Shown piece by piece: positions 36,318 through 52,366 of a DNA stretch of 64,000 nt (positions within the stretch are counted from its first letter, which is position 1; the number at the start of each line of letters is the position of its first letter). The stretch lies in the NCBI GenBank assembly GCA_025526935.1, contig JAHLKD010000002.1, forward strand, positions 475,001 through 539,000, in the 5' to 3' direction. This stretch comes from Cladochytrium replicatum. Taxonomy: Eukaryota; Chytridiomycota; Chytridiomycetes; Cladochytriales; Cladochytriaceae. Under the pieces are notes generated by a model. That model was not told the origin of the DNA, searched no databases, and was given only the letters and a program-made list of their open reading frames with translations. The position numbers and the translations under genes were made by a program.

Positions 36318-36655
36318 TTAGTGTTCAAGTTGGTACCTTCAATTGTCGAAATTTGAGCTTTGGAGTTCTTGATTCACTGTTTCGTTTTATGCACGCAAAT
36401 CACATTATTTTTCTGCTCCTGACTGAAACACACCTTTTTCCTTTAGACCCGCTGCCTTCCCCAGATTTGATTTTTGACACTCGTTTTTCTCCTGGTCATC
36501 GGGTACACGACGGGCTGGTGTGGGAGTCTTGATCAATCGCAGTCTTTGTAGAGCTTCTGATTTCCGTCTCGTTTCTAGTTCTGGTGGCACCTCTCTATGG
36601 TTTACATTCGTGGGCTTTTGGTTGGAGGGTATTATTTGCCTCCGTGTGGTATTGC
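36318..36655 (+). pseudogene. Endonuclease fragment of a non-LTR (LINE) retrotransposon
   Basis: Two frames give VGTFNCRNLSFGVLDSLF and HIIFLLLTETHL, then SPGHRVHDG, GVLINRS and SLWFTFVGFWLEG. These are the start of an apurinic-type endonuclease/exonuclease/phosphatase fold: the N-C-R-N-L opening, the T-E metal site and the later G-V-L strand. The frame shifts near 36515. No LINE reverse transcriptase follows; the sequence changes to copia pol at about 36655. Confidence 0.65.
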
Positions 36656-38333
36656 TCAGGTCCTCATATCCAACACAACCAATTGCGAATGGAAATATAC
36701 GGACTGCACCAAAGACTCTTTGTGAGGCTTTATCACGATCCGATGAGGCTCCATTCTGGTTAGCGGCGATAAAGGAGGAAGTCACACAACTAGTCGGCAA
36801 CAATACTTGGGCCGAAACGTTTTTACCTGATGGACGGAATTTATTATCGGGCAAATGGGTTTTCACATATAAGCTTGACGAACATGGCAATATTACTCGA
36901 TTCAAAGCACGTTGGGTCGTACGAGGATTTTCACAGATTGAAAGATTGGATTTCGATGAAACTATTCTCCAGTTACGAAAACGTCCACGATCCGTTTTCT
37001 GATTGCATTAGCAGCATTAATCAGCATGATCATATTCCAGTTTGATATCAAGGGTGCATATCTCAATGCGATACTGGAAGAAGAGAACTACGTCGAACTC
37101 CCTCATGGTTTCGGACGAGTAGATTTCCGGAATTGACCCATCGTCTGCAGACTTATCAAAAGTCTGTACGGTCTACACCAGGCAGCTCGAGAATGGTACA
37201 AAACTCTTTGGAAACAATATCTCAGTGTTGGTTTCGTGAGGAATATTGCAGACATCTGTCATTTCTGGCGATACAATCCAACAAATAATACCCGCGAACA
37301 CACTACCGTTCATGTCGATGATATACTACATTTTTCCACAGATCCAAACGCATATCATCGGTTTCAGACTGATTTGGAAACTTCGTTCACAGTAGGCAGT
37401 ACTTCGAAAGCGAAATGGATTCTGAAAATGGAGTTATTGCAGACAACGGAAGGATATTTCCTTAGCAATGCATTGTACGTAAAGAAGATTCTCGAAGAAG
37501 CGAATTTATGGGGTACCAACATCAAACCGACCAAAACACCGATGTCGAAATCATATATCTTTGATGAGACTACACCAACACTGTCCGATGCCGAGGCAAC
37601 ACAATTTCGATAAATGTTAATGAAGATATCGTACGTGGCGACTAAGACACGACCGGATATTTCATACGCAGTCAATATTTTGGCACAACATCAGATTGAT
37701 CCTCGACAGTCAGAATCAAAGGCTCTCTATCGATTACAACGATATTTACTCGGTACTTGGGATTACGGTTTACACTATACACGGACTGGTATCACGTCTC
37801 TGATGCTGAGACCCGACGGTCTCTACACGTTTGATTCGGCTAACAACCCACAAGGTTATGCCGATGCAGACTGGGCGGGCGATGCAGATAGATACTCACG
37901 AACCGGTTACGTGGTAATGTTCGCTAATGCGGCAATCAGTTGGCAGTCGATTCGACAACAGACTATTGCAGCCTCGTCGTCGGAAGCCAAACTGTATGCA
38001 TTGAACAAACTATCGCGTGAGATGAAGTGGATGAAAAATCTTATGACGGGTATCGGAATTACGTCGTTCAATCCGCTCCGTTTATGGCAAGACAATCAAT
38101 CCACCGAGTCTATCGCAAACAATCTGTTCAACAACAAACGGACTAAACACATGGACGTTCGCGAGAGATTTGTGAATCTCCAAGTTGAACAGAAACATCA
38201 GGAGTTACACCATATGGATACTTCTGATATGATCACGGACATCTTAACTAAACCTCTTGGAAGTAAATTATACCTTAAACACAGGGGCTCGTTGGGGCTA
38301 GTCAGTCAGTCTTCACTTAATATACTATCTTGA
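36656..38333 (+). pseudogene. Decayed Ty1/copia pol: reverse transcriptase and RNase H part
   Basis: Starts in the copia reverse transcriptase (SGKWVFTYKLDEHGNITRFKARWVVRGFSQ). A frame change follows near 36970, then HQAAREWYK, the catalytic VDDIL (the Y/F-VDD box, here HVDDILHF) and WILKMEL. A TAA at 37611-37613 interrupts the frame where a related copy at 51.6 kb has a sense codon. RNase H follows with YADADWAGDADRYSRTGY, SSSEAKLYALN and the LRLWQDNQSTESIANN end. Gag, protease and integrase are missing. It cannot move on its own. Confidence 0.88.
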
Positions 38334-38460: not shown

Positions 38461-39017
38461 TGTTAAGTATTTCGATTGATGGACTTGGCCAATCCAATCA
38501 TTGATAGTACAAAAACACAAACGCCCGATATACAGAAATGTCACTCTTCACCGAGCAACATTTCTAACTATTGAACTTAAGCATATAGATGATGATCTAT
38601 TACGAGTTTGGATACCTCCGGTTATTTCTTCATGGGTTATATTTATTGCAGCCATAGGTATAGTAAACTGTCATTACTTTTCTATCATCCACTTGTAGAA
38701 GTGAAGCCCGGATCAGATCAGAGCAAAGGTTTACATATGATTAACGCGTTCGTGGGAATCATGTGTGAGAACAATCCTGTTGAGGAGAGCTAGATCTCAC
38801 GCACAGCTTAGCATGATTATGCTTCGCTACGCCTGTGAGAAGAAGAGTCAAACCTTATCGCTGCGATCCAGATCTTCCGGAAGGAAAAGCCAAAACGACA
38901 GTACACTTATTTAAGGAGCCTGTGGCGATACACACAAGGAGCATTCTCTTGCGCTAGCACTTGTGACTCGCAATCTTCTTTATTCATCTCTTAGCAACAT
39001 TAACCCGTGAATTAACA
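38461..39017 (+). mobile_element. 3' LTR of the copia element
   Basis: The segment begins TGTTAAG right after a purine-rich GAGGGGGTG tract and ends ATTAACA, so TGTTAA and TTAACA form the short inverted ends of an LTR. It is 557 bp. A TATTTAAGG promoter-like word lies near 38909. No matching 5' LTR was found because the element is 5'-truncated, so the copy-to-copy difference cannot be used for dating. It ends inside the hAT gene. Confidence 0.7.
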
Positions 39018-39723
39018 ACACACACAACCTGAGGATCCAGACCACAGCTTTGTTCAACACAATCCAGTCCAAAATCGACCGCCACGCTACGTCTGGATTG
39101 AACACAAAGTTTTGCTCCTTCTCCTGCGAGCCGAAATTCAATGTCTGTTGTCCCTTGGGGACGATGTCCAACAGTCCAAGCGACCTGGCAATACTTCCAT
39201 GGTGGTTTTTCAGATGCCGGAGGAAGTTTTGTGTTGATCCCGTCTTATCGACCTTCTGGCTCCACTTGCATTTCGCAACCAAACATGTTCTCAGTCCATT
39301 ATCAACCTTATAGTAATCCTTCGCTATGCCGCCTCGACTACCTCTACAGTCCGACATGCTATCAACATCTGCGTCTGATGAAAGCATTGATGGTTGAACT
39401 GATCCAGCTGCAGGCTCCTGTCGCACTGAAGAGTCAGCAAAACTAACGTCGGCAGGAAGCTCTGGTGCATGCTGAGAAGCCAGGCCCAACTCGCTGGAGT
39501 CATTGGAAGAAGATGTGGAGCTCGGCTCTCGAGCGCTGTTGTTGCCACCATGTCCTGATACACGTCTGCGTTTGTCCTGCATGCTGTTCCCCTCGCTGGA
39601 CGCCTCTGAAATTTGGGGGGCTGGCAGACTTCGCTTCCGTGTGTCAAGCGGATGACTGTCCACCAGTCTTTGGCTTGCGTCGGACGCTGCCTTACGCTTT
39701 GGTTTAACAAAGGCGGCGTCCAT
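39018..39723 (-). pseudogene. N-terminal part of a hAT-family transposase, cut by the copia LTR
   Basis: The frame starts at ATG 39723. A Lys/Ser-rich leader with KPKRKAAS and DKRRRVSG nuclear-localisation-like clusters leads to a BED-type zinc finger: C..C in CLVAKCKWSQK, then GSTQNFLRHLKNHH. After DVAWRSILDWIVLNKAV the reading frame runs into the LTR at 39017 and stops at 38980. The RNase-H-like catalytic core and dimerisation region are absent. BED plus the 'LDWIV' helix is the usual start of fungal hAT transposases. Confidence 0.7.
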
Positions 39724-39760
39724 TTTTGCTGTGGTGTGGCTGGAACGTTACCGACTCTAA

Positions 39761-40150
39761 GTGTCCAGGTGCACAGAAAGCACAGCTCTCGAGGTCTGTC
39801 GTGGTAGAAATTGTTTGTTACAGAACTTCCGTTGTGACTTCTTGGAAAGTGTCTGGGTGGACAGAATCGTATTGCTAGTAACATTGATAGAGAGGTTAGT
39901 TGTACTGGGTAGAGATCACTGAAGTACGTCAATGAGTTGAGAAAGTGTCCGGGTGGACAGAATCGTATTGCTAGTAACATTGATAGAGAGGTTAGTTGTA
40001 CTTGATAGAGATCACTGAAGTACCGTCAATGAGTTGAGAAAGTGTCCGGGTGGACAGAAAATACATGCCTCGATGTCTGTTGTGATGCAAAATTGTTTGA
40101 TACATACAAAACTTATATTGCATCTTCTTGGAAAGTGTCCGCGTGGACAG
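39761..40150. repeat. Five copies of a 16-bp word GTGTCCGGGTGGACAG
   Basis: Copies begin at 39761, 39849, 39945, 40042 and 40135, with one to three changes each. Three are spaced 96-97 bp, and the 39849 and 39945 copies sit in a nearly identical block of about 97 bp. TGTCC and GGACA make the word an inverted repeat. They lie just upstream of the hAT transposase, where hAT elements carry subterminal transposase-binding repeats. Confidence 0.8.
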
Positions 40151-40189
40151 AAAGAACAATAGCTTCGTTTTAGCTTCTCTATCACATCG

Positions 40190-40346
40190 GGTTTTACTCG
40201 GGTCTGATTTTTGACCCGAGAAGGGTTTTCCTACTGGACCCAATACCCGACCCGAATCCCACCCGAAAATTTTCCATGAAAACCGGGCACTCGGGTCGTG
40301 TACATTTGGTATATGGACCCGGACCCGACCCTAAAGACCCTAAAAC
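40190..40346. mobile_element. hAT-like terminal region rich in (A)CCCG/CGGGT
   Basis: ACCCG and CGGGT words occur about ten times in both orientations, ending GGACCCGGACCCGACCC then TAAAGACCCTAA. Fungal hAT ends often have GGGTCGGGT-type inverted repeats (recalled). The WD40 coding sequence of the receptor gene stops exactly at this block, so I take 40346 as approximately the element end. Target duplication could not be tested because the other end is missing. Confidence 0.6.
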
Positions 40347-40349
40347 CGG

Positions 40350-43300
40350 CCGATCCTTAGCTGTGTCCCACAGCTTCACAGTTGTGTCAGATGATCCTGA
40401 CGCCAATTTGCTGCTGTTGGCGCTCCAGGCAATTACATTGACCACTTTATCGTGGCCCCTTAGAGTGTGTTGCTCTGTACCTGTTGCCCCATCCCACAGC
40501 TTCACTGTTTTATCATATGAGGCTGAGGCAACCATTGTTCCATCCCTGCTCCAGGCCACCGATTTAACCGAACTGCCATGGGCCTCCAAGGTACTCAGCA
40601 GAGTTGGCCACTGGTCATCTGCTCCAGCAAGTGGCCGAGGCCTTGGAAGGTCTGAACTGAACGAGGGTTTGTCCATGAAATGAGATGCGATAGGGCGATT
40701 CTTCGGTGCAAGTGGAACTGCTGTCCAGTATACATGCATAATGCCCTGCGATAAAGCTGGGTTGAACCGCCGCAACAAACGAATTGCATCCTGCAGGAGG
40801 TTGGTACACGTTGCGGAGTGTTGATCCTGGCCGAGACTCACAGTTAGGAGAAAAGTATTTTCTTTTTAGGAGTTGATAATAATTACCTCCAGGTTGGTTT
40901 GGTAAACAGTCAACAGTTGGTTGCACGTCGGAATCACAACATCCAGCCTTTCAATTGCTGACAACATCTCAAACCAGTGAAGCAGGTGCTGGAGGACGAA
41001 ACTTTGTACAAGGTCTCTCAACCCAAACTTCACTTCGTCGAGACTTCGCAAGTGCACATGTAAATACACCGCCGCGTAAAGCCGATGCGGAGGAATGCCC
41101 TTGTCAATTTTCATGGCAAGGACGTTAGGTGGCAGCATGTCCCGCCGCTGGTACATCTCCTCCTGGGAAATTCGCACATGTTGAAGTGGAGTTCATTGTT
41201 GAGTGCAAGCAAGATGTCCTGTGCAAAGTTGTGTTCGTCTTGAGCGCTGACGGCAAACAGGGGATCGGTGCACCTTTTCGGGTCGATCAGGTAATCCTTT
41301 ACCGATTTGTGGAAAACCTGAATCTTCCAATTCGAATCCACGTGAAGAACTGACATGAGTTGCCGGACACAAAACTCGACAGTCGCAATGTCCATCTGGA
41401 GCAACGCTGCAATGTCTGCAGCTGTGAGGTTCTCCTGAGCAAAGACGATGGCTGCAAGAACCCTGCGGAGTACAGGCGCAAGAACACAGTGGAGATTCTG
41501 GTGTAGCCCTTCGTTAAAGATCCGTCGGAAGGTTCTGTTGTACATTGTGTCCATCTTTCGGTCGTTGCTGTCAGTGCTGGCGTCAAGTTTGTGTATGGCG
41601 TCGAGGGTGATGGATGGCAGATTCTCCAGAACCTTGCACGCCATGACCAACCAGACAAAGAGCCCGGCAGAACTGTCCACAAGTGCATCAGGTCCCTTCG
41701 TGAGAGCGTCTGAATCAGTGGTGTGACGTGCCAAGAAGTGTTTGATGTATAACAGTGCATCCTGCTTATTCTGCTTCGCAGTGGGGTCAAGTTTTTCCTT
41801 CGGAATAATGTGAAACGCCGTCACAATGTCGTCTTCCGGGCGGGACGTGATGACCATTCGTACGTAGCTCGGGAGGCGACCACAATAGGAGGAGAACAGC
41901 TGCAAGACGTCATGACGTCGATGAAGCATGCCGCACTCATCAAGCGCATCAACCACAATGACCACCGGCTTGTCGAGCTGACCAAGTTGTTTGAGCGGGT
42001 TTTCTATAAGAACCTCAAACATGACGCTCAAGTTCTTTTGGGCGATGCTATTCGCGCGCATCGCATCCAGAAGATGGCGGCCAAACCGTGGATTCCAGTA
42101 GCACAGTTGCAGTGCAATCGTAGCGACCATCGATTTAGCATTGGTGCGACGCGTGTCATCGTGCTTGCAGTAGAAGTAGGCGTCCAGTTGATTCTTCGCG
42201 GTCAAATCATTGATGATCAACGACGCCATGACTGACTTCCCAACTCCGGCTGACCCGTCCAGCCAGAGAAGCCGCTTGTGTGTCGCGCTTTCGGTATCCG
42301 GGAACAGGAACGTGTTGACTGTGTCCAGCAACCAAGTCCTTGTCCCATCAAGATATTCTTTGAAACGCGCCTGTTGCGTTTCGACCATGTCGGCCACGAG
42401 TGTTTCGTGCGGGGCAAGCCACTCGAGAAGTGATCTCACTTCAGAGATAGACAGCTCATGCATGATTTCGCCCAGATTGTCAACACGTTTGAGTTTCCCC
42501 AGCAAAGCAGTGACCAAACTGAAATGAAAACAAATCGACAAAAAATCATTTGTCTATTGCACACATAGAATGCCTGCTCACCTGGAAATCTGGGCTGGTT
42601 CTGATGGATTGAGGGAGTGTGTCTGAACTTCGAATATCATCTCCATGGTTTTGCGCACTTTACGCTTGTGTGGGCTGAGGGGACATGCGTGCATAGAATC
42701 CGGGAACTCTGATGCAGTGAATCGGGAATACCGTTTGAACAAAGTTTCGCTGTCCGTTTTGCCCGACACAGTTGCTGTAACGTTTGCCCCAACTGCAACT
42801 GGAAAGAGCACAATCTCATTTTTGAGGTGGAGATCGACCGCTAGCTCCCACTGACTCAGAAAGAATTAATTATGAGGATTGGTGACAGGAACAAACCAAC
42901 CATACCTCCAGGAACATGTTGTCAGCGATTTCGTGCGCCTTCGTGACCCTCTCCAACCCTTTCTCAGACATAAAGAGAACCACAACCTTGCTGTGATGGA
43001 GTGCGAAAACGAAATTGTGCACCCATTTCTGGGCTTTGTTGAGGCACAGCTGATCCCAAAAGGCAGTATGCGAAGAAAGGGCGAACGCGATGGACTGTAC
43101 AACAGTGGCTTCGGTTGCGACGCGGTAGCTAAAATGGCAGTAAAATGGATGGTTTGTTATGTGAGTTACTGGAAAACGAACTCAAACAAAGGGGGCAATC
43201 TCACCTCAGGAAAAAGTTGTGTTTCGTAGCATTGTGGAACTCACACGTCACTTCCTTCAGGCAGTCATTGAGACTTGTAACTAGCAATGAGGCAAATCAG

Positions 43301-44179
43301 TTTGACATTTGACCGCCACACAATTGGAGTCTCTTTGCTCACCGTCAATTTTGTCCACGTCCGCATGCCCGTTGTCAACAATAGGCATCTGTTGATTCAA
43401 ATGGTCAACCACTGCGACATGCGATCGAGAAAAAGTGCTCGAGTACCTCTTATACCGAGAAAGGATACGCTAAGCGGATCTTTTCAAGAATGTCGGTGTC
43501 CTCCCCGCACACGTAAATCTTTTGCGCCGGAGGATTGTGATACTTGACCACTGTTCGCCAAGGATCCAGACCGAACTCACTCGCTATGCATTTCCGTAGT
43601 TCATGAAACGTTACAGATGGATCCACGTTCAGTTGGTGTTCTTTGTGCTCCCCGGCCTTATTCTTCCCAGAAACACGCAGGCGCGGGAGATGCAAAACGA
43701 CTGAAGCGGAACATTAGTGTCGCCATGCTTAAGGCTTCTTTTAGTAAGATCACTGACCTCTGACTACAATTGGTCGCTCTCGAGATCCAAAATCGGCAAA
43801 GCTCCAAAGATGATCGTCCGTCGCCAAGGCCACTGCATCCGACTCAGACCTGTAGATCTGGAAGCTTTCTTCGGAAAGTGTCCCAATGTCTGCACCCTTA
43901 AGATAATTGGTTAATACCAGTCTCGCCAGAAAAAATTCCATACATCCTCACCAGACGCAGTTGTGAAACTTTCTCCAGAAGTAACTTCTGCAGTTGAATA
44001 ACATACTGAACCTCGGATGTAGGGACAGCTAGCAAGATCTTGACTTTGTTGGTGGAGTCGAGAACACGATGGAACCAGAGTTGCTTTTCGATCTTCCTGA
44101 AGAACCAGATGAAAACGGTTGCGGATACAATGAGAACAGCCACAAGGATCGGGATGAGGATGCCGTGGTTCCCCATCAT
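40350..44179 (-). pseudogene. TIR-NACHT-WD40 STAND receptor (NLR-like) with N-terminal membrane anchor, disrupted
   Basis: Exons on the minus strand, approximately: 44179-43952, 43896-43758, 43700-43456, 43411-43343, 43280-43205, 43128-42906, 42850-42582, 42518-40887, 40826-40350. Residues 7-28 form a membrane helix (ILIPILVAVLIVSATVFIWF). A beta-grasp-like region follows. Next is a TIR domain: NFFLSYRVATEATVVQ, FWDQLCLNKAQKW, VVVLFMSEKGL and DNMFLEWELAVDL, where the last Glu fits the TIR NADase position. The NACHT ATPase has Walker A GSAGVGKS and Walker B VVIVVDALDEC. Two WD40 repeats end KTVKLWDGA and TTVKLWDTA. Damage: a frame mismatch near 43450, another near 41170, and the WD40 part is cut by a hAT end at about 40350. 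Intact relatives would sense intruders and oligomerise (family knowledge). Confidence 0.75.
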
Positions 44180-46629: not shown

Positions 46630-46821
46630 AGTAGTTGATCTCTCGCAGCATCAATATCTCTTTGGTCTTTTGGATGTACTACCACTCACTGGACAACGTT
46701 CTTCCCCAAAAATTCAAAAATGGTTCTGTTTTAAACAAATCTCGTTTGATACAAACTGCCTGTAGTGGGAGAATGCACTCTCGTCAACAAATTTTCATCA
46801 CCCACACTTTCCCATTTGCAA

Positions 46822-48351
46822 ATGTCGAGCCACCGAGTGCCAACGTGGAATCCTTCTGTCGATGACCGCGCCGAGCAGCAGAGCATGCAACCCCTGAATT
46901 TGTTTGCTCAGATGCCCGTTGATCTTTACCCGAGGTTCACTTCAACTGTTGCCCCGTTCGACATCAACGTAAACACCCAGGTTGCCGCACAGCTCGGTCA
47001 AGCACCACCCTTTTATCTCCCGAGCCTGCAAATTGCTTCTTACACAACGTCCGGGGCTGCGCATCCCGTTTTTCAGATGCCCGTCAACTTGGGGGCAAGC
47101 CATCGCACAGATGTTCCCGGATCATCCAACGCAGCTCCCCCCTTGAAACAATGGCTGACCATGCACAACACCTCCTCGACATCGTCTTCTTCCTCTACAT
47201 CACGAACGCCGCAAGATATGTTGTTCAATGCGCAGGGAACCACCGCCCATACATTGAATCCTCCTCTCCACAATTATCCTGAGTCCGTTTTGAATTTACG
47301 TTCTTCCATATGGAACTTGGTCAACAATCACGGTCGTACCGGTGGCAGTAGCCTTCCACGCACTCCGCAGCTAACACACCGCCCTTCGCCCAGACCGTAT
47401 AGTGGACCTCCGATGCCGGTAAGGCCACTCCCGATGGAGATCGTCGACGCGATTCTCATTCAGGTGGGACTTGGGGATAGACAGCCCAAGCTTGCCTTCC
47501 AAGTGGCCACGCAATTGCGACGAAAGGCCGTCCAGCGTCGCTTGGCGTTCCTTGTGATCGACGTAGACTTGGCGAGCGCACGTGGGGGAGTGGATGCGCT
47601 CGAGTTTCTGAAGAGCACAAACACCACGTTTTGTGTTCAGGTTGATTCAAGGCCCCCGAAAACTTACTATTACACGTTGCTTGAGAACCCGAACCAACCG
47701 GTGTCGTACTACAGCTACATTGCGGTCGACGAGGCAAGCTCCCATGGACACGTCAACGTACTCGAGTGGTGGAAAGCGAGTGGTATACAGATGGAATGGA
47801 TGAGGGCGCTAGAGTGCGCGAGTGCGGGAGGGTGTCCGCTGCCCAACGAGGACTTGGACGAAGACGTTATCGCAATATACGGGGAGCGCGATTCCTGCCT
47901 TTCGCGCAGGATGTTTCCCAAACCTGCGGGAGTCGGCCAAATGGACGTTCTGGAATGGTGGAAAGCAAGCGGGTTACCGTTACACAGCAAGCTCTCGCTG
48001 GCGTGCGGGTCGCCGATGGACTGGGCGAGTGAGTATGGATGTGTGAACGCGCTCGAGTGGTGGAAACACAGCGGGTGGTCGATTCGGTTGTACACAGAGA
48101 ATTCGATGGACGGGGCTAGCAAGCGGGGACACATAGAGGCGCTTGAGTGGTGGAAGTCAAGCGGGTTGGAACTCAAGTACTCTCATTATGCGATGGACGA
48201 GGCGAGCATAGCTGGACGTGTGGAGGTGTTGGAGTGGTGGAGAAAGAGCGGGCTGGAGTTGAAATGGAGTGACAGAGCGTTGGCGACAGAGAAAGGGACT
48301 TCGTTGGGATACCTCTGGTGGAAGTCCAAGTTGATTTTGAGGTTGGACTAG
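46822..48351 (+). CDS. F-box-like protein with LEWWK-x-SGL repeats
   Basis: One exon of 509 residues from ATG 46822; the frame is open further up without ATG. The first 210 residues are Ser/Pro/Asn-rich. At about residue 205 PVRPLPMEIVDAILIQVGL looks like an F-box helix. About seven repeats of 33-45 residues follow, each with a core such as VNVLEWWKASGIQM, MDVLEWWKASGLPL, VNALEWWKHSG, IEALEWWKSSGLEL and VEVLEWWRKSGLEL. The x-D-x-A-S-x-x-G-x linkers recall ankyrin-type helix pairs. Such repeat families are expanded in chytrids and slime moulds (recalled). A substrate-binding role in an SCF ubiquitin ligase is inference. Confidence 0.7.
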   Translation: MSSHRVPTWNPSVDDRAEQQSMQPLNLFAQMPVDLYPRFTSTVAPFDINVNTQVAAQLGQAPPFYLPSLQIASYTTSGAAHPVFQMPVNLGASHRTDVPGSSNAAPPLKQWLTMHNTSSTSSSSSTSRTPQDMLFNAQGTTAHTLNPPLHNYPESVLNLRSSIWNLVNNHGRTGGSSLPRTPQLTHRPSPRPYSGPPMPVRPLPMEIVDAILIQVGLGDRQPKLAFQVATQLRRKAVQRRLAFLVIDVDLASARGGVDALEFLKSTNTTFCVQVDSRPPKTYYYTLLENPNQPVSYYSYIAVDEASSHGHVNVLEWWKASGIQMEWMRALECASAGGCPLPNEDLDEDVIAIYGERDSCLSRRMFPKPAGVGQMDVLEWWKASGLPLHSKLSLACGSPMDWASEYGCVNALEWWKHSGWSIRLYTENSMDGASKRGHIEALEWWKSSGLELKYSHYAMDEASIAGRVEVLEWWRKSGLELKWSDRALATEKGTSLGYLWWKSKLILRLD

Positions 48352-49082: not shown

Positions 49083-49892
49083 ATATAATAAAGACTCTTC
49101 AGGTTACGAGCAGCTACTCGGAGTTACTTGGATGTACTTGATGTGATTCACCAAGTACTATAAAAGGAATTCCCCCTAATACGCTTATGGGAGACTCTAT
49201 TGAGATTAAACAACCACTCACTGAGCGATCAGCACTTCCATCGACCTATCCCAAAACGTTATCAGCACCAAACTCTTTGGTCACTGGAGATCGTGAAAAC
49301 ACTGCATCATGCCGCACAAGAGTCAACGTGGAACCCGTGGAACCTCTGCACCCCCTGCCCTGATCCCCCAGCCGCAGACCAGAACACATTGAAGGTCGCG
49401 GCTGAAGCAAACAGAGATAAGCTGACCATTTCCACCTACGATTGTACGCAACATCCCCTTCCAAGCGACCAAGAACGATCTCCGCCAGCTCTTTGCGTAA
49501 GCTACCCTTTCATACGCGTCCACGATCCGTTGTTACCTGTGCTCTACCTTACAAGACGAGTTTCGAAATCCCGCAGTGACATGGTGGATGCTGAAAACCA
49601 TGTTTTACGACATGACCAAGGTGATGCTTCCCCTGCAGCGCAGTCGACGCCTGGAACCGCATTCGCTACTGCGATTATCCGTTAAAGTCTACCCTTGACG
49701 TGAACAACTGTTCTGTTGTATTTCTTATGGTTGCAATTATCCGTTCAAGTGTACCCCTTGACGTGAACAACTGTTGTGTTTGATTTATGTGACAGTAGTG
49801 GTGACAGTATTTGCATCAGTTGACAACGTGTGTGCTTGAGCCAACACTACTGGTGAATACACTGTAGCATCAGACTATCCGACTGACCACGC
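49083..49892. other. Intergenic with a short direct repeat
   Basis: No gene recognised. A block of about 40 bp (ATTATCCGTT then CTTGACGTGAACAACTGTT) occurs twice, near 49673 and 49736, 63 bp apart. It may be worn retroelement leader sequence before the copia fragment. Confidence 0.5.
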
Positions 49893-49899
49893 GTGTGCT

Positions 49900-52366
49900 T
49901 GTCACTGGTGGTGGTGGTTGCAACTGTGTTGGGTTGGGGGGAGTTCATTTACAACTATTTCATCCGATCGAAATCACTTGTGTCGCCAAAGGTTATTCAA
50001 CATGTTGAGATGCCTGAAAATCGATTCGACTGCAAGGTAGCGGAGTTGCGAATGGACTTCGGGGAAGCCATCACTCATGAACTACGGGATTTCTGCAGAG
50101 ACAGATCACCCACTATTGCTTTGCATCCATCACCTCCTTATGTCAAGGAAATGAATGGATTGGTGGAACGAAACATCAGAACTGTTGAACAGATGTCTGA
50201 GGCCATGCTTATTCAGTGCGGATTACCACGCAACCTTCAATTCCGACAATACGCCATCCTTTACGCTGCGACGGTCAAGAATATGGTGGTGCATCGACGG
50301 ACTGGCGAAGTGCCTCATATCGCTTATCTTGGCAAGGAGATCAAACTGGCAACGATCCATACATTCGGAACTCTGGTATCTGTCTATATACCACACGAAG
50401 TACGAATGCGTCGCAAGACTATTGAACACTCAGAGTTCGGCACGTTTCTTGGCTTGAAGGGTGAAGATTTACGGATAAATTGGTCCTCAACTTTCGATCC
50501 AATCAGATTCGGGAATATTTCGACGTTACTTTTCATGAGGGAGTATTTCTTGGCGCACGTCCTTCTTTTGCTGCTATCGAAAAGATTTCTCACACTTTCC
50601 CGATTCCTAAAGGTGTCTTTGCGGACGAAGCGACACCTACGTATGGCTCCTACGATCTAGTCGGAACCATGACAACCGATATGTTCGATGGGGATGCTCC
50701 GAGGCGGGATGCCGAGGAGCATCCCCAAGGTGTTGGAACGACCGGATGAGTTACCGTTTTGGCTTGCTGCAATGTACGAAGAGAAGACACAGCTGGTGGA
50801 CTTCGGTACATGGGAAGAGACAGTTCTCCCGAAAGGGAAGAATCTACTCTCCGGCAAGTGGGTTTTTGCGTACAAGCTAGACGAGCACGGCAACATTGTA
50901 CGGTTCAAAGCACGATGGGTTGCGAGGGGTTTTTCACAAATTGAAGGCGAAGACTTCAATGAGGTTTACTCTCCAGTCACCAAGACAACCACTATCAGAT
51001 TACTCCTTGCGTGGGCGGTGATGATTTTACTCTACATACATCAGTACGATGTCAAAGGAGCTTTCCTGAATGGAATTCTTCGAGAAGTAAATTATCTTGA
51101 AATGACTCATGGGTTTGAGAAGTTCAACAAACATATGCAGATGATCGTTTGTAAGTTACTCAAGACCTTGTATGGTCTACATCAAGCCGCCCGTGAATGG
51201 TACATTACTTTATGGGGAAAATATGTCAAGATAGGATTTTCACGCAATTTGGCAGACGTTTGTCATTTCTGGCGGAAAGTACCAGGGAAACGTGGGGCGA
51301 GAGAACACACAACAGTACATGTTGATGATATTCTACTCTTTACACCAGATCATGCACGACATCTCACTTTCAAGACCGATCTCGAAAGGTTTTTCACCAT
51401 TGGTAGTCACACGCGAGCGAAGTGGATTCTGAAGATGGAGTTGGTGCAAACAGAGAATGGATACTACATTGGGAATGAACTTTACGCACAGCAAATTCTC
51501 GAAGAAGTTGGACTGTGGGGAACGAACACCAAGCATGCGGACACGCCTATGTCAAGATTCTTTGCAAGACCTATGGATTCGCCGGACCTTCAGGATTCTG
51601 CGGCAACCACATATCGATCGAGACTTATGAAGCTTTCATATCTCGCGACGAAGACACGTCCAGATCTGTCATATGCTGTCAACATCCTTGCACAATTTCA
51701 GGTTGCGCAAAGGAATGTGATGTGAAAGCATTAAACAGAATCTTTCGTTATCTATTGGGGACATGGGATATGGGATTGCACTATACGCGCAATAACACTG
51801 TCGCACCAACGATACGTAGAGACGGTACTCACGAATGGGTCAATAAGGAAGACACGGCTATGGAACAACAATATCTACAACGCGGATATGCTGATGCTGA
51901 CTTCGCAGGAGAAGCATCTCGATATTCACGCACGGGATATGTTGTCATGTTCACCAATGCGGCAGTCAGCTGGCAGTCTGTTCGACAACAAATTATTACC
52001 AACTCTTCTACAGAGGCGGAATTAGTTGCACTGAACGAACTAGCCAGAGAGATGTCATGGATCACTATTATGATGGACTCAATCGGGATTGTATCTCGAT
52101 CTCCACTTCTTGTCTATCAAGACAACACGTCAACCGAGTCAATTGCTAATGACCTATCAAATAACCGTCGCACGAAACACATGGAAGTTCGTGAAAAATA
52201 CCTCACCGAATGTATTGAACGGAAAAAGATAGAGATCAAGCATTGTCCAACTGAGGAAATGGTTGCGGATATCTTTACGAAACCGCTAGAACCACGACTC
52301 TTTCACCGTCATCGTAAATCAATGGGACTAGTGAGTTTATCGAGCTTGAAAGCCATAAATTCCTAA
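49900..52366 (+). pseudogene. Second Ty1/copia pol: integrase core, reverse transcriptase, RNase H; 5'-truncated
   Basis: Integrase text runs from about 49930: CKVAELRMDFGEAI, HPSPPYVKEMNGLVERNIR and LIQCGLPRNLQF, i.e. the second Asp and the Glu with N-G-x-x-E-R. The first Asp and zinc domain are missing. Reverse transcriptase is in another frame from about 50700: SGKWVFAYKLDEHGNIVRF, VKGAFLNGIL and HVDDILLF. A shift near 51715 leads to RNase H: YADADFAGEASRYSRTGY, NSSTEAELVALNELA and VYQDNTSTESIAND, ending LFHRHRKSMGLVSL. It is better preserved than the copy at 36.7 kb and belongs to a different lineage (about half the residues differ by eye). Confidence 0.88.

Follow-up and report, generated by a model that had tools for sequence, protein, structure and literature searches.

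A decayed TIR-NACHT-WD40 receptor gene of Cladochytrium replicatum and its putatively membrane-tethered relatives

Does a flagellated fungus possess NOD-like receptors (NLRs) that would hold an NAD-cleaving TIR domain at the membrane? The question is raised by a gene on the minus strand of a 64,000-nucleotide stretch of the Cladochytrium replicatum genome (contig JAHLKD010000002.1, positions 475,001 to 539,000; hereafter the window, in whose coordinates its features are given). An earlier note on this DNA had outlined a gene starting at 44179 and encoding a membrane helix, a TIR domain, a NACHT ATPase with Walker A and B motifs and WD40 repeats, and this outline was borne out by exon phases, Pfam matches and hydropathy. 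We consider, with a probability of roughly 0.65, that the gene is a pseudogene of a membrane-anchored TIR-NACHT-WD40 NLR, one of about 38 such loci in this genome, whose products would work by the mechanism proposed below. As a whole, the family is best read from its sequences as membrane-tethered TIR-NLRs that would cleave NAD and whose recognition surfaces would be diversifying.

The window gene and its damage

Eight exons were readable from the ATG at 44179 down to about 41.17 kb (44179-41131). They are separated by seven introns of 55-76 nt, with GT/AG borders throughout and phases matching across all eight exons, and their conceptual product is 871 aa. Position 41131, given as the end of exon 8, marks only the end of the part read. 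The features are as follows.

43952..44179, minus strand: exon 1, with the ATG at 44179, a predicted transmembrane helix at residues 6-24 (44164-44108) and the donor GTGAGG
43758..43896, minus strand: exon 2, a linker with the C-terminal end GSRERPIVVR; GT-AG, phase 0 in, phase 1 out
43456..43700, minus strand: exon 3, a probable beta-grasp (PB1/ubiquitin-like) domain
43343..43388, minus strand: exon 4, a short linker
43205..43280, minus strand: exon 5, a linker and the first TIR strand (HNFFL, then S across the exon border)
42906..43128, minus strand: exon 6, first part of the TIR domain, with the codon of E319 (the putative catalytic position) at 42908-42906
42582..42850, minus strand: exon 7, second part of the TIR domain (beginning WELAVDL)
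41131..42518, minus strand: exon 8, the NACHT/NPHP3_N ATPase, with Walker A at 42256-42233 and Walker B at 41965-41936; similarity leaves the frame near 41170
40887..41192, minus strand: the NACHT-WD40 linker goes on here in a shifted frame, as far as a GT donor at 40886; likeness to the paralogue on contig C9 (the HWFE region) by eye
40361..40826, minus strand: last exon, with two WD40 repeats (about 40583-40361), broken off at about 40360
39900..40360, minus strand: first part of the interspersed repeat, whose insertion truncates the propeller (94-96% identity among copies)

The profile check of the spliced translation that the earlier note had proposed came out in favour of this outline. 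In Pfam, NPHP3_N/NACHT spanned residues 467-637 of the 871-aa product (NPHP3_N E 5.2e-34; NACHT E 7.4e-8, 32.8 bits against a cut-off of 26.7), and both Walker motifs were found (Walker A GSAGVGKS, Walker B VVIVVDALDE). TIR_2 (Pfam clan STIR) matched residues 242-340 with E 7e-6 and 27.0 bits, just under its cut-off of 28, and the isolated TIR domain scored above it (E 4e-7, 30.9 bits). The downstream piece in the shifted frame matched WD40 across two repeats (E 2.5e-24). An intron splits the SYR motif at the start of the TIR, and the same was read by eye in the paralogues on contigs C9 and C63.

The list of domains in the earlier note overlooked the one encoded by exon 3, which is probably a beta-grasp domain of the PB1/ubiquitin-like kind. 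PB1 (E 0.05) and OTU1_UBXL (E 0.004) both matched under their cut-offs, and an AlphaFold2 model of the window exon with two relatives had the order E-E-H-E-E-H at a predicted local distance difference test (pLDDT) score of 77.5 (five models, 53.5-77.5). Foldseek with this model gave no match at E 0.001; the best had E 0.15, among weak ubiquitin, PB1 and unrelated matches.

The window copy is a pseudogene. Its NACHT frame reaches a stop at 41,111, C9-like sequence carries on by eye in another frame from about 41,17x, and the WD40 propeller is interrupted at about 40,360, where the interspersed repeat starts; the view of the earlier note that this copy is damaged thus holds. The repeat has at least 40 copies (the best 40 of 761 candidates scored), and 34 of the 39 best other copies start at query positions 59-63 (about 40362-40358), the remaining five at 54-75. 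A six-frame scan of the 64-kb window with a WD40 profile from a paralogue found no WD40 beyond the two repeats, and the idea that the remaining propeller lies on the far side of the insertion was dropped for this window.

The TIR domain and its glutamate

Fourteen TIRs of this genome were aligned: three from the window clade, two of the type found on contigs C121 and C60, four from family B (the relatives whose upstream exon is of the MGN[S/T]QS type, a signature of N-myristoylation) and five stand-alone domains. All 14 match TIR_2, and the alignment has no invariant columns other than those of S, Y, D, E, A and P. Its conserved glutamate, E80 of the window domain and E319 of the 871-aa product, is encoded by the final codon of exon 6. 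The earlier note had pointed to the W-E-L-A glutamate region but chose the wrong glutamate: the conserved one precedes the W of FLEWELA. Among the TIRs left outside the alignment, which include L011, L030, L034, L035, L041, L043, L044, L046, L023 and L012, the glutamate is present by eye in those covering that position.

Searches of solved structures with single sequences were nearly empty; one family-B TIR gave five marginal matches (E 0.47-0.95), of which two were TIRs. A profile of the 14 rows was therefore needed. With it, 56 distinct solved-structure sequences were matched at E <=0.1, including Cat1 (1.3e-14), Roq1 (3.5e-13), L6 (6e-11), Caenorhabditis elegans TIR-1 (1.6e-10) and SARM1 (1e-9). 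Because Cat1, Roq1 and L6 rank above TIR-1 and SARM1, the label "SARM1-like" given to this domain earlier is not specific. In the profile alignments with Roq1 and L6 the invariant glutamate is paired with the E in their C-L-x-E-L motif; in Roq1 the catalytic residue is E86. From the alignment coordinates, and assuming that the last 15 positions are gap-free, profile position 72 (E) equals residue 642 of full-length SARM1 (7knq, 724 aa). SARM1 E642 and RUN1 E100 have been named putative catalytic glutamates, and the E86A mutant described in the same paper belongs to RBA1 (PMC7282519; here and below, papers with a PMC number are cited from excerpts). By these alignments E319 occupies the catalytic position of TIR NADases, and the TIRs of the family may cleave NAD.

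Window-type TIRs (DNVLMEWE...) were also seen at L008, L009 and L011 (contigs C121, C60 and C14), where the long region after them is another one (e.g., ISADDHN...); this is perhaps a second TIR gene family.

Relatives, anchors and variable WD40 positions

The genome was searched in six frames, so that all counts are lower bounds. Searching with the NACHT exon gave 56 matches, which merged into 50 loci on 21 contigs, window copy included; 25 of the 50 sit on contigs C61 and C63. The TIR set comprised 73 domains, namely 71 TIR_2 matches and the window and C9 TIRs, which were added by hand. As raw co-occurrence counts, a same-strand TIR lay within 1.5 kb upstream at 30 of the 50 NACHT loci and an MGN exon within 2.5 kb upstream at 32; 24 loci had both and 38 had either. 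The distance from MGN exon to NACHT was 906-1058 bp in 30 of the 32 cases (460 and 686 in the other two).

The earlier note had expected intact paralogues in the same genome, and intact-looking ones were found. Open frames on contig C80 (2327 codons) and at 139-140 kb of C61 (1349 codons), with introns read through, hold the TIR minus its first strand, the NACHT and the WD40 repeats, so that these domains are not on separate genes there. The objection that TIR and NACHT might belong to separate transcripts is thereby rejected for these two loci. Part of the C80 array is N in the assembly. The C9 paralogue (at 329.8-335.3 kb of that contig; NACHT identity 40%) is open across the helix, a beta-grasp-like region, TIR, NACHT and WD40 in the exons read by eye, and several others of the roughly 38 loci look open in the parts read. 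WD40 arrays in the paralogues are longer than the two repeats of the window copy.

Anchoring of these receptors appears to recur in differing forms, a lipid tag or a helix, and common descent of the helices is not claimed. The window helix has a Kyte-Doolittle mean of 2.82 over 19 aa (residues 6-24), and the C9 helix, which lies at the corresponding end of an open exon of 432 aa, one of 2.56; the best hydrophobic stretch of the one family-B N-terminus tested reached 1.41. For family B, a lipid tag is suggested by the N-myristoylation-type motif. The genome holds 42 MGN-exon matches, of which 36 were fetched, and 30 of the 36 fit the N-myristoylation pattern MG-x-x-x-[STAGCN] at their start. 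One fitting exon (L079) has a stop codon inside the motif, and 29 of 36 were therefore counted; the six that do not fit have an altered start, an altered sixth residue or a stop. Three further MGN exons (stretches L049-L051) also start with MGN, and the last three of the 42 are outside the fetched set. The window gene, which starts MMGNHG, is not assigned to the myristoylated group. Membrane location is predicted for both forms from their N-termini. A model of a family-B N-terminus, translated straight through an intron, had pLDDT 50.5 and the order E-E-H-H-E-E-H-E, in which the strand order is suggestive only.

Ten of the 42 MGN exons have no NACHT behind them and are orphan or decayed (C3:70101, C38:16158, C80:86614, C23:482888, C61:211008 and others).

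The WD40 repeats of two sister genes were then compared unit by unit. Because earlier search patterns had fixed some positions, the variability test was redone on consecutive, unfiltered units (14 units of 42 aa in the C80 gene and the first 7 units of the array in the C61 gene), with the same result. Mean unit identity was 83% in C80 and 70% in C61, both under the 85% threshold of PMC4986451. Mean entropy at positions 5, 7, 23 and 25 was 1.99 in C80 and 2.06 in C61, against 0.27 and 0.52 at the other positions, and random four-site sets reached the observed values in 6 (C80) and 2 (C61) of 200,000 draws. The four sites hold ranks 1-4 in C61; in C80 position 4 outranks 25. The four-site spacing pattern fits best, among 42 registers, in the same register in both genes. 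Raw nonsynonymous:synonymous codon differences, counted over non-independent unit pairs, were 264:1 at the four sites and 372:235 elsewhere in C80, and 71:0 and 194:123 in C61. Across eight fetched stretches from seven genes, 41 distinct units had 40 different four-site combinations (here the search pattern fixes some other positions).

In the Podospora repeat, strong positive selection was reported at codons 7, 9, 25 and 27, flanking the conserved codons 8 and 26 (PMC1805685). Considering that sites 5/7 flank V6 and sites 23/25 flank D24 in the C80 and C61 repeats, the four sites match those of Podospora with a shift of two. This site-specific variability in two sister genes suggests that the recognition surfaces diversify.

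Proposed mechanism, rival explanations and known systems

In most members a lipid tag at the N-terminus, and in the window and C9 copies a membrane helix, would anchor the receptor at a membrane. Its WD40 propeller would bind a foreign or modified ligand. The NACHT would then oligomerise with nucleotide, and the clustered TIRs would cleave NAD, or produce an NAD-derived signal, via the conserved glutamate; this signal would lead to cell death or defence. The immune role, NADase activity, location at the membrane, oligomerisation and ligand binding are inferred.

Several points weigh against this reading. At 12 of the 50 NACHT loci neither a TIR nor an MGN exon is in reach. The window TIR is weak alone (27-31 bits), and its single-sequence search of solved structures gave no match at E 5. 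The hypervariable WD40 pattern was measured in two lipid-anchor sister genes, which are neither the window copy nor among the relatives closest to it. The N-termini of the window gene and C9 have no supported homology (BLASTP E 0.27, a local match involving exon 2), and homology is therefore not claimed; an alignment of individual window exons with the C9 exon made no sense and was dropped. Because the C9 N-terminal exon, as a genome query, recovers only itself and one decayed copy on contig C24 (L089, C24:265 kb), helix anchors are judged rare, and the window and C9 helices may be independent gains. Some TIR domains, moreover, are scaffolds.

The TIR of this family might act purely as a homotypic scaffold, recruiting further TIR proteins of the genome without cutting NAD. 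Potential partners exist, as 43 of the 73 TIR matches do not adjoin a NACHT and several of them resemble complete stand-alone TIR open reading frames (ORFs; L037-L046), and in the 14-TIR alignment the window-type TIR has an insertion ahead of the glutamate. We nevertheless find a pure scaffold unlikely, because every one of the 14 aligned TIRs has the glutamate, at a position matching the catalytic one of solved NADases. With similar reserve we regard the proposal that the hydrophobic stretch at the window N-terminus lies outside the gene or is a chance product of a decaying copy. The copy is a pseudogene, its start site is predicted, the N-termini of the clade are not alignable, and C63, the third member of the window clade, has an ATG directly ahead of the beta-grasp-like exon and lacks a helix in the part read. 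On the other side, exon 1 joins exon 2 in phase, and C9 has its own helix at the same end.

That the window copy still functions as a short receptor with two WD40 repeats is very improbable. The reading frame is open in exons 1-7 and through most of exon 8, and a sequencing error could account for the frame change within the gene, but not for the insertion of a high-copy repeat. The use of the family is a separate matter. Self/non-self recognition between strains, in the fashion of HET-D/HET-E and in place of defence against other species, is a doubtful though conceivable alternative: the four hypervariable WD40 positions are the same as in those proteins, but diversifying surfaces are compatible with either use, and heterokaryon incompatibility via hyphal fusion is not known from flagellate fungi. 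We prefer the membrane-anchored TIR-NLR set out above. The broader proposal, that a zoosporic fungus has a plant-like innate immunity with dozens of NAD-cleaving TIR-NLRs tethered to membranes, many of which cluster on a few contigs, and with propellers diversifying at the four HET-D/HET-E positions, has about even odds in our judgment.

Among known systems, the HNWD proteins of Podospora anserina (HET-E, HET-D and HET-R) share with this family the NACHT, the WD40 repeats, the tandem similar 42-aa units and the same four variable positions (7, 9, 25 and 27 in PMC1805685; 5, 7, 23 and 25 in the two lipid-anchor relatives). Their effector is HET, whereas that of the window family is a TIR_2-type TIR; unlike them, the window gene has an N-terminal membrane anchor by prediction, an extra beta-grasp-like domain and only two WD40 repeats. 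With TIR_2 present and HET absent from the 13 Pfam families listed at E 1 for the 871-aa product, a HET-domain receptor was rejected. Plant TIR-NLRs (Roq1, L6, RUN1 and RPP1) likewise have a TIR with a glutamate at the catalytic position ahead of a nucleotide-binding switch, but combine it with NB-ARC and LRR in place of NACHT/NPHP3_N and WD40; in the window product NB-ARC reached E 0.087 versus 5e-34 for NPHP3_N, and no LRR was among the families listed, which for the WD40 piece are 25 of 46. Signal anchors are predicted at the N-termini of flax L6 and M, and RPS5, also an NLR, is N-acylated (PMC3801107). SARM1 and TIR-1 share the TIR NADase family and the glutamate position. SARM1 carries ARM and SAM domains and is not known to have NACHT or WD40; as ARM and SAM were not among the 13 families listed, a SARM1 orthologue was rejected.

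The earlier note had held a TIR effector with a membrane anchor to be unusual among fungal NLRs. This is weakened by a report of TIR in NLRs of Chytridiomycota, together with TIR-like effectors in Pezizomycotina (PMC9815663). Those proteins share with the present family a TIR fused to a fungal NLR of the NACHT type, and the excerpts of that paper, which also found a Crinkler (ubiquitin-clan) NLR N-terminus, do not describe anchors, expansion or repeat diversification of TIR-NLRs. It held the one explicit statement on TIR in chytrid NLRs that our search of excerpted chytrid literature found. Elsewhere, a small group of fungal TIR-NLRs is mentioned (PMC10197012), TIR domains are said to occur in fungi, with nothing more specific (PMC7075850), and Mortierellomycota NLRs are reported to have been acquired from endosymbiotic bacteria (PMC11291939). 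Literature searches for TIR-NACHT in fungi, or TIR, WD40 and NACHT in early diverging fungi, found none under those terms, and none, judged by title, for myristoylation of fungal NACHT NLRs. Since TIR-NLRs are already on record for Chytridiomycota, the family is a variant on a known theme and not a new sort of receptor.

A survey published in 2014 reported no NLRs from the chytrids among the fungi it analysed and linked NLRs to multicellularity (PMC4986451), as against about 50 NACHT loci, 30 with a TIR directly upstream, in this flagellate fungus. If the reading is true, the four-position recognition device exists outside filamentous Dikarya and outside heterokaryon incompatibility. Should the TIR be an NADase and the anchors be functional, membrane TIR-NLR signalling would be common to plants and an early branch of the fungi, with sensor and switch modules that differ between the two. 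Because the hypervariable WD40 sites are shared, it also becomes testable whether HET-D/HET-E recognition arose from defence against other species.

Around the window gene, an ORF at 38980-39747 (minus strand) adjoins the truncating repeat and contains a BED-zinc-finger-like C...C...HxxxHH stretch, with no Pfam match at E 1. Two Ty1/copia-like pol regions (36405-38333 and 49887-52366) flank the gene, with reverse transcriptase and RNase H-like ORFs by eye. At 46750-48351 (plus strand) lies an ORF with repeated WWK-type units, and similar units occur directly 5' of the C61 receptor gene (stretch L051). The genome also has strong chitin synthase matches (best 1.7e-226; the family matches in 4 of 14 prokaryote controls as well) and an IFT57 gene above the cut-off, which no prokaryote control exceeds; together they fit a flagellate fungus.

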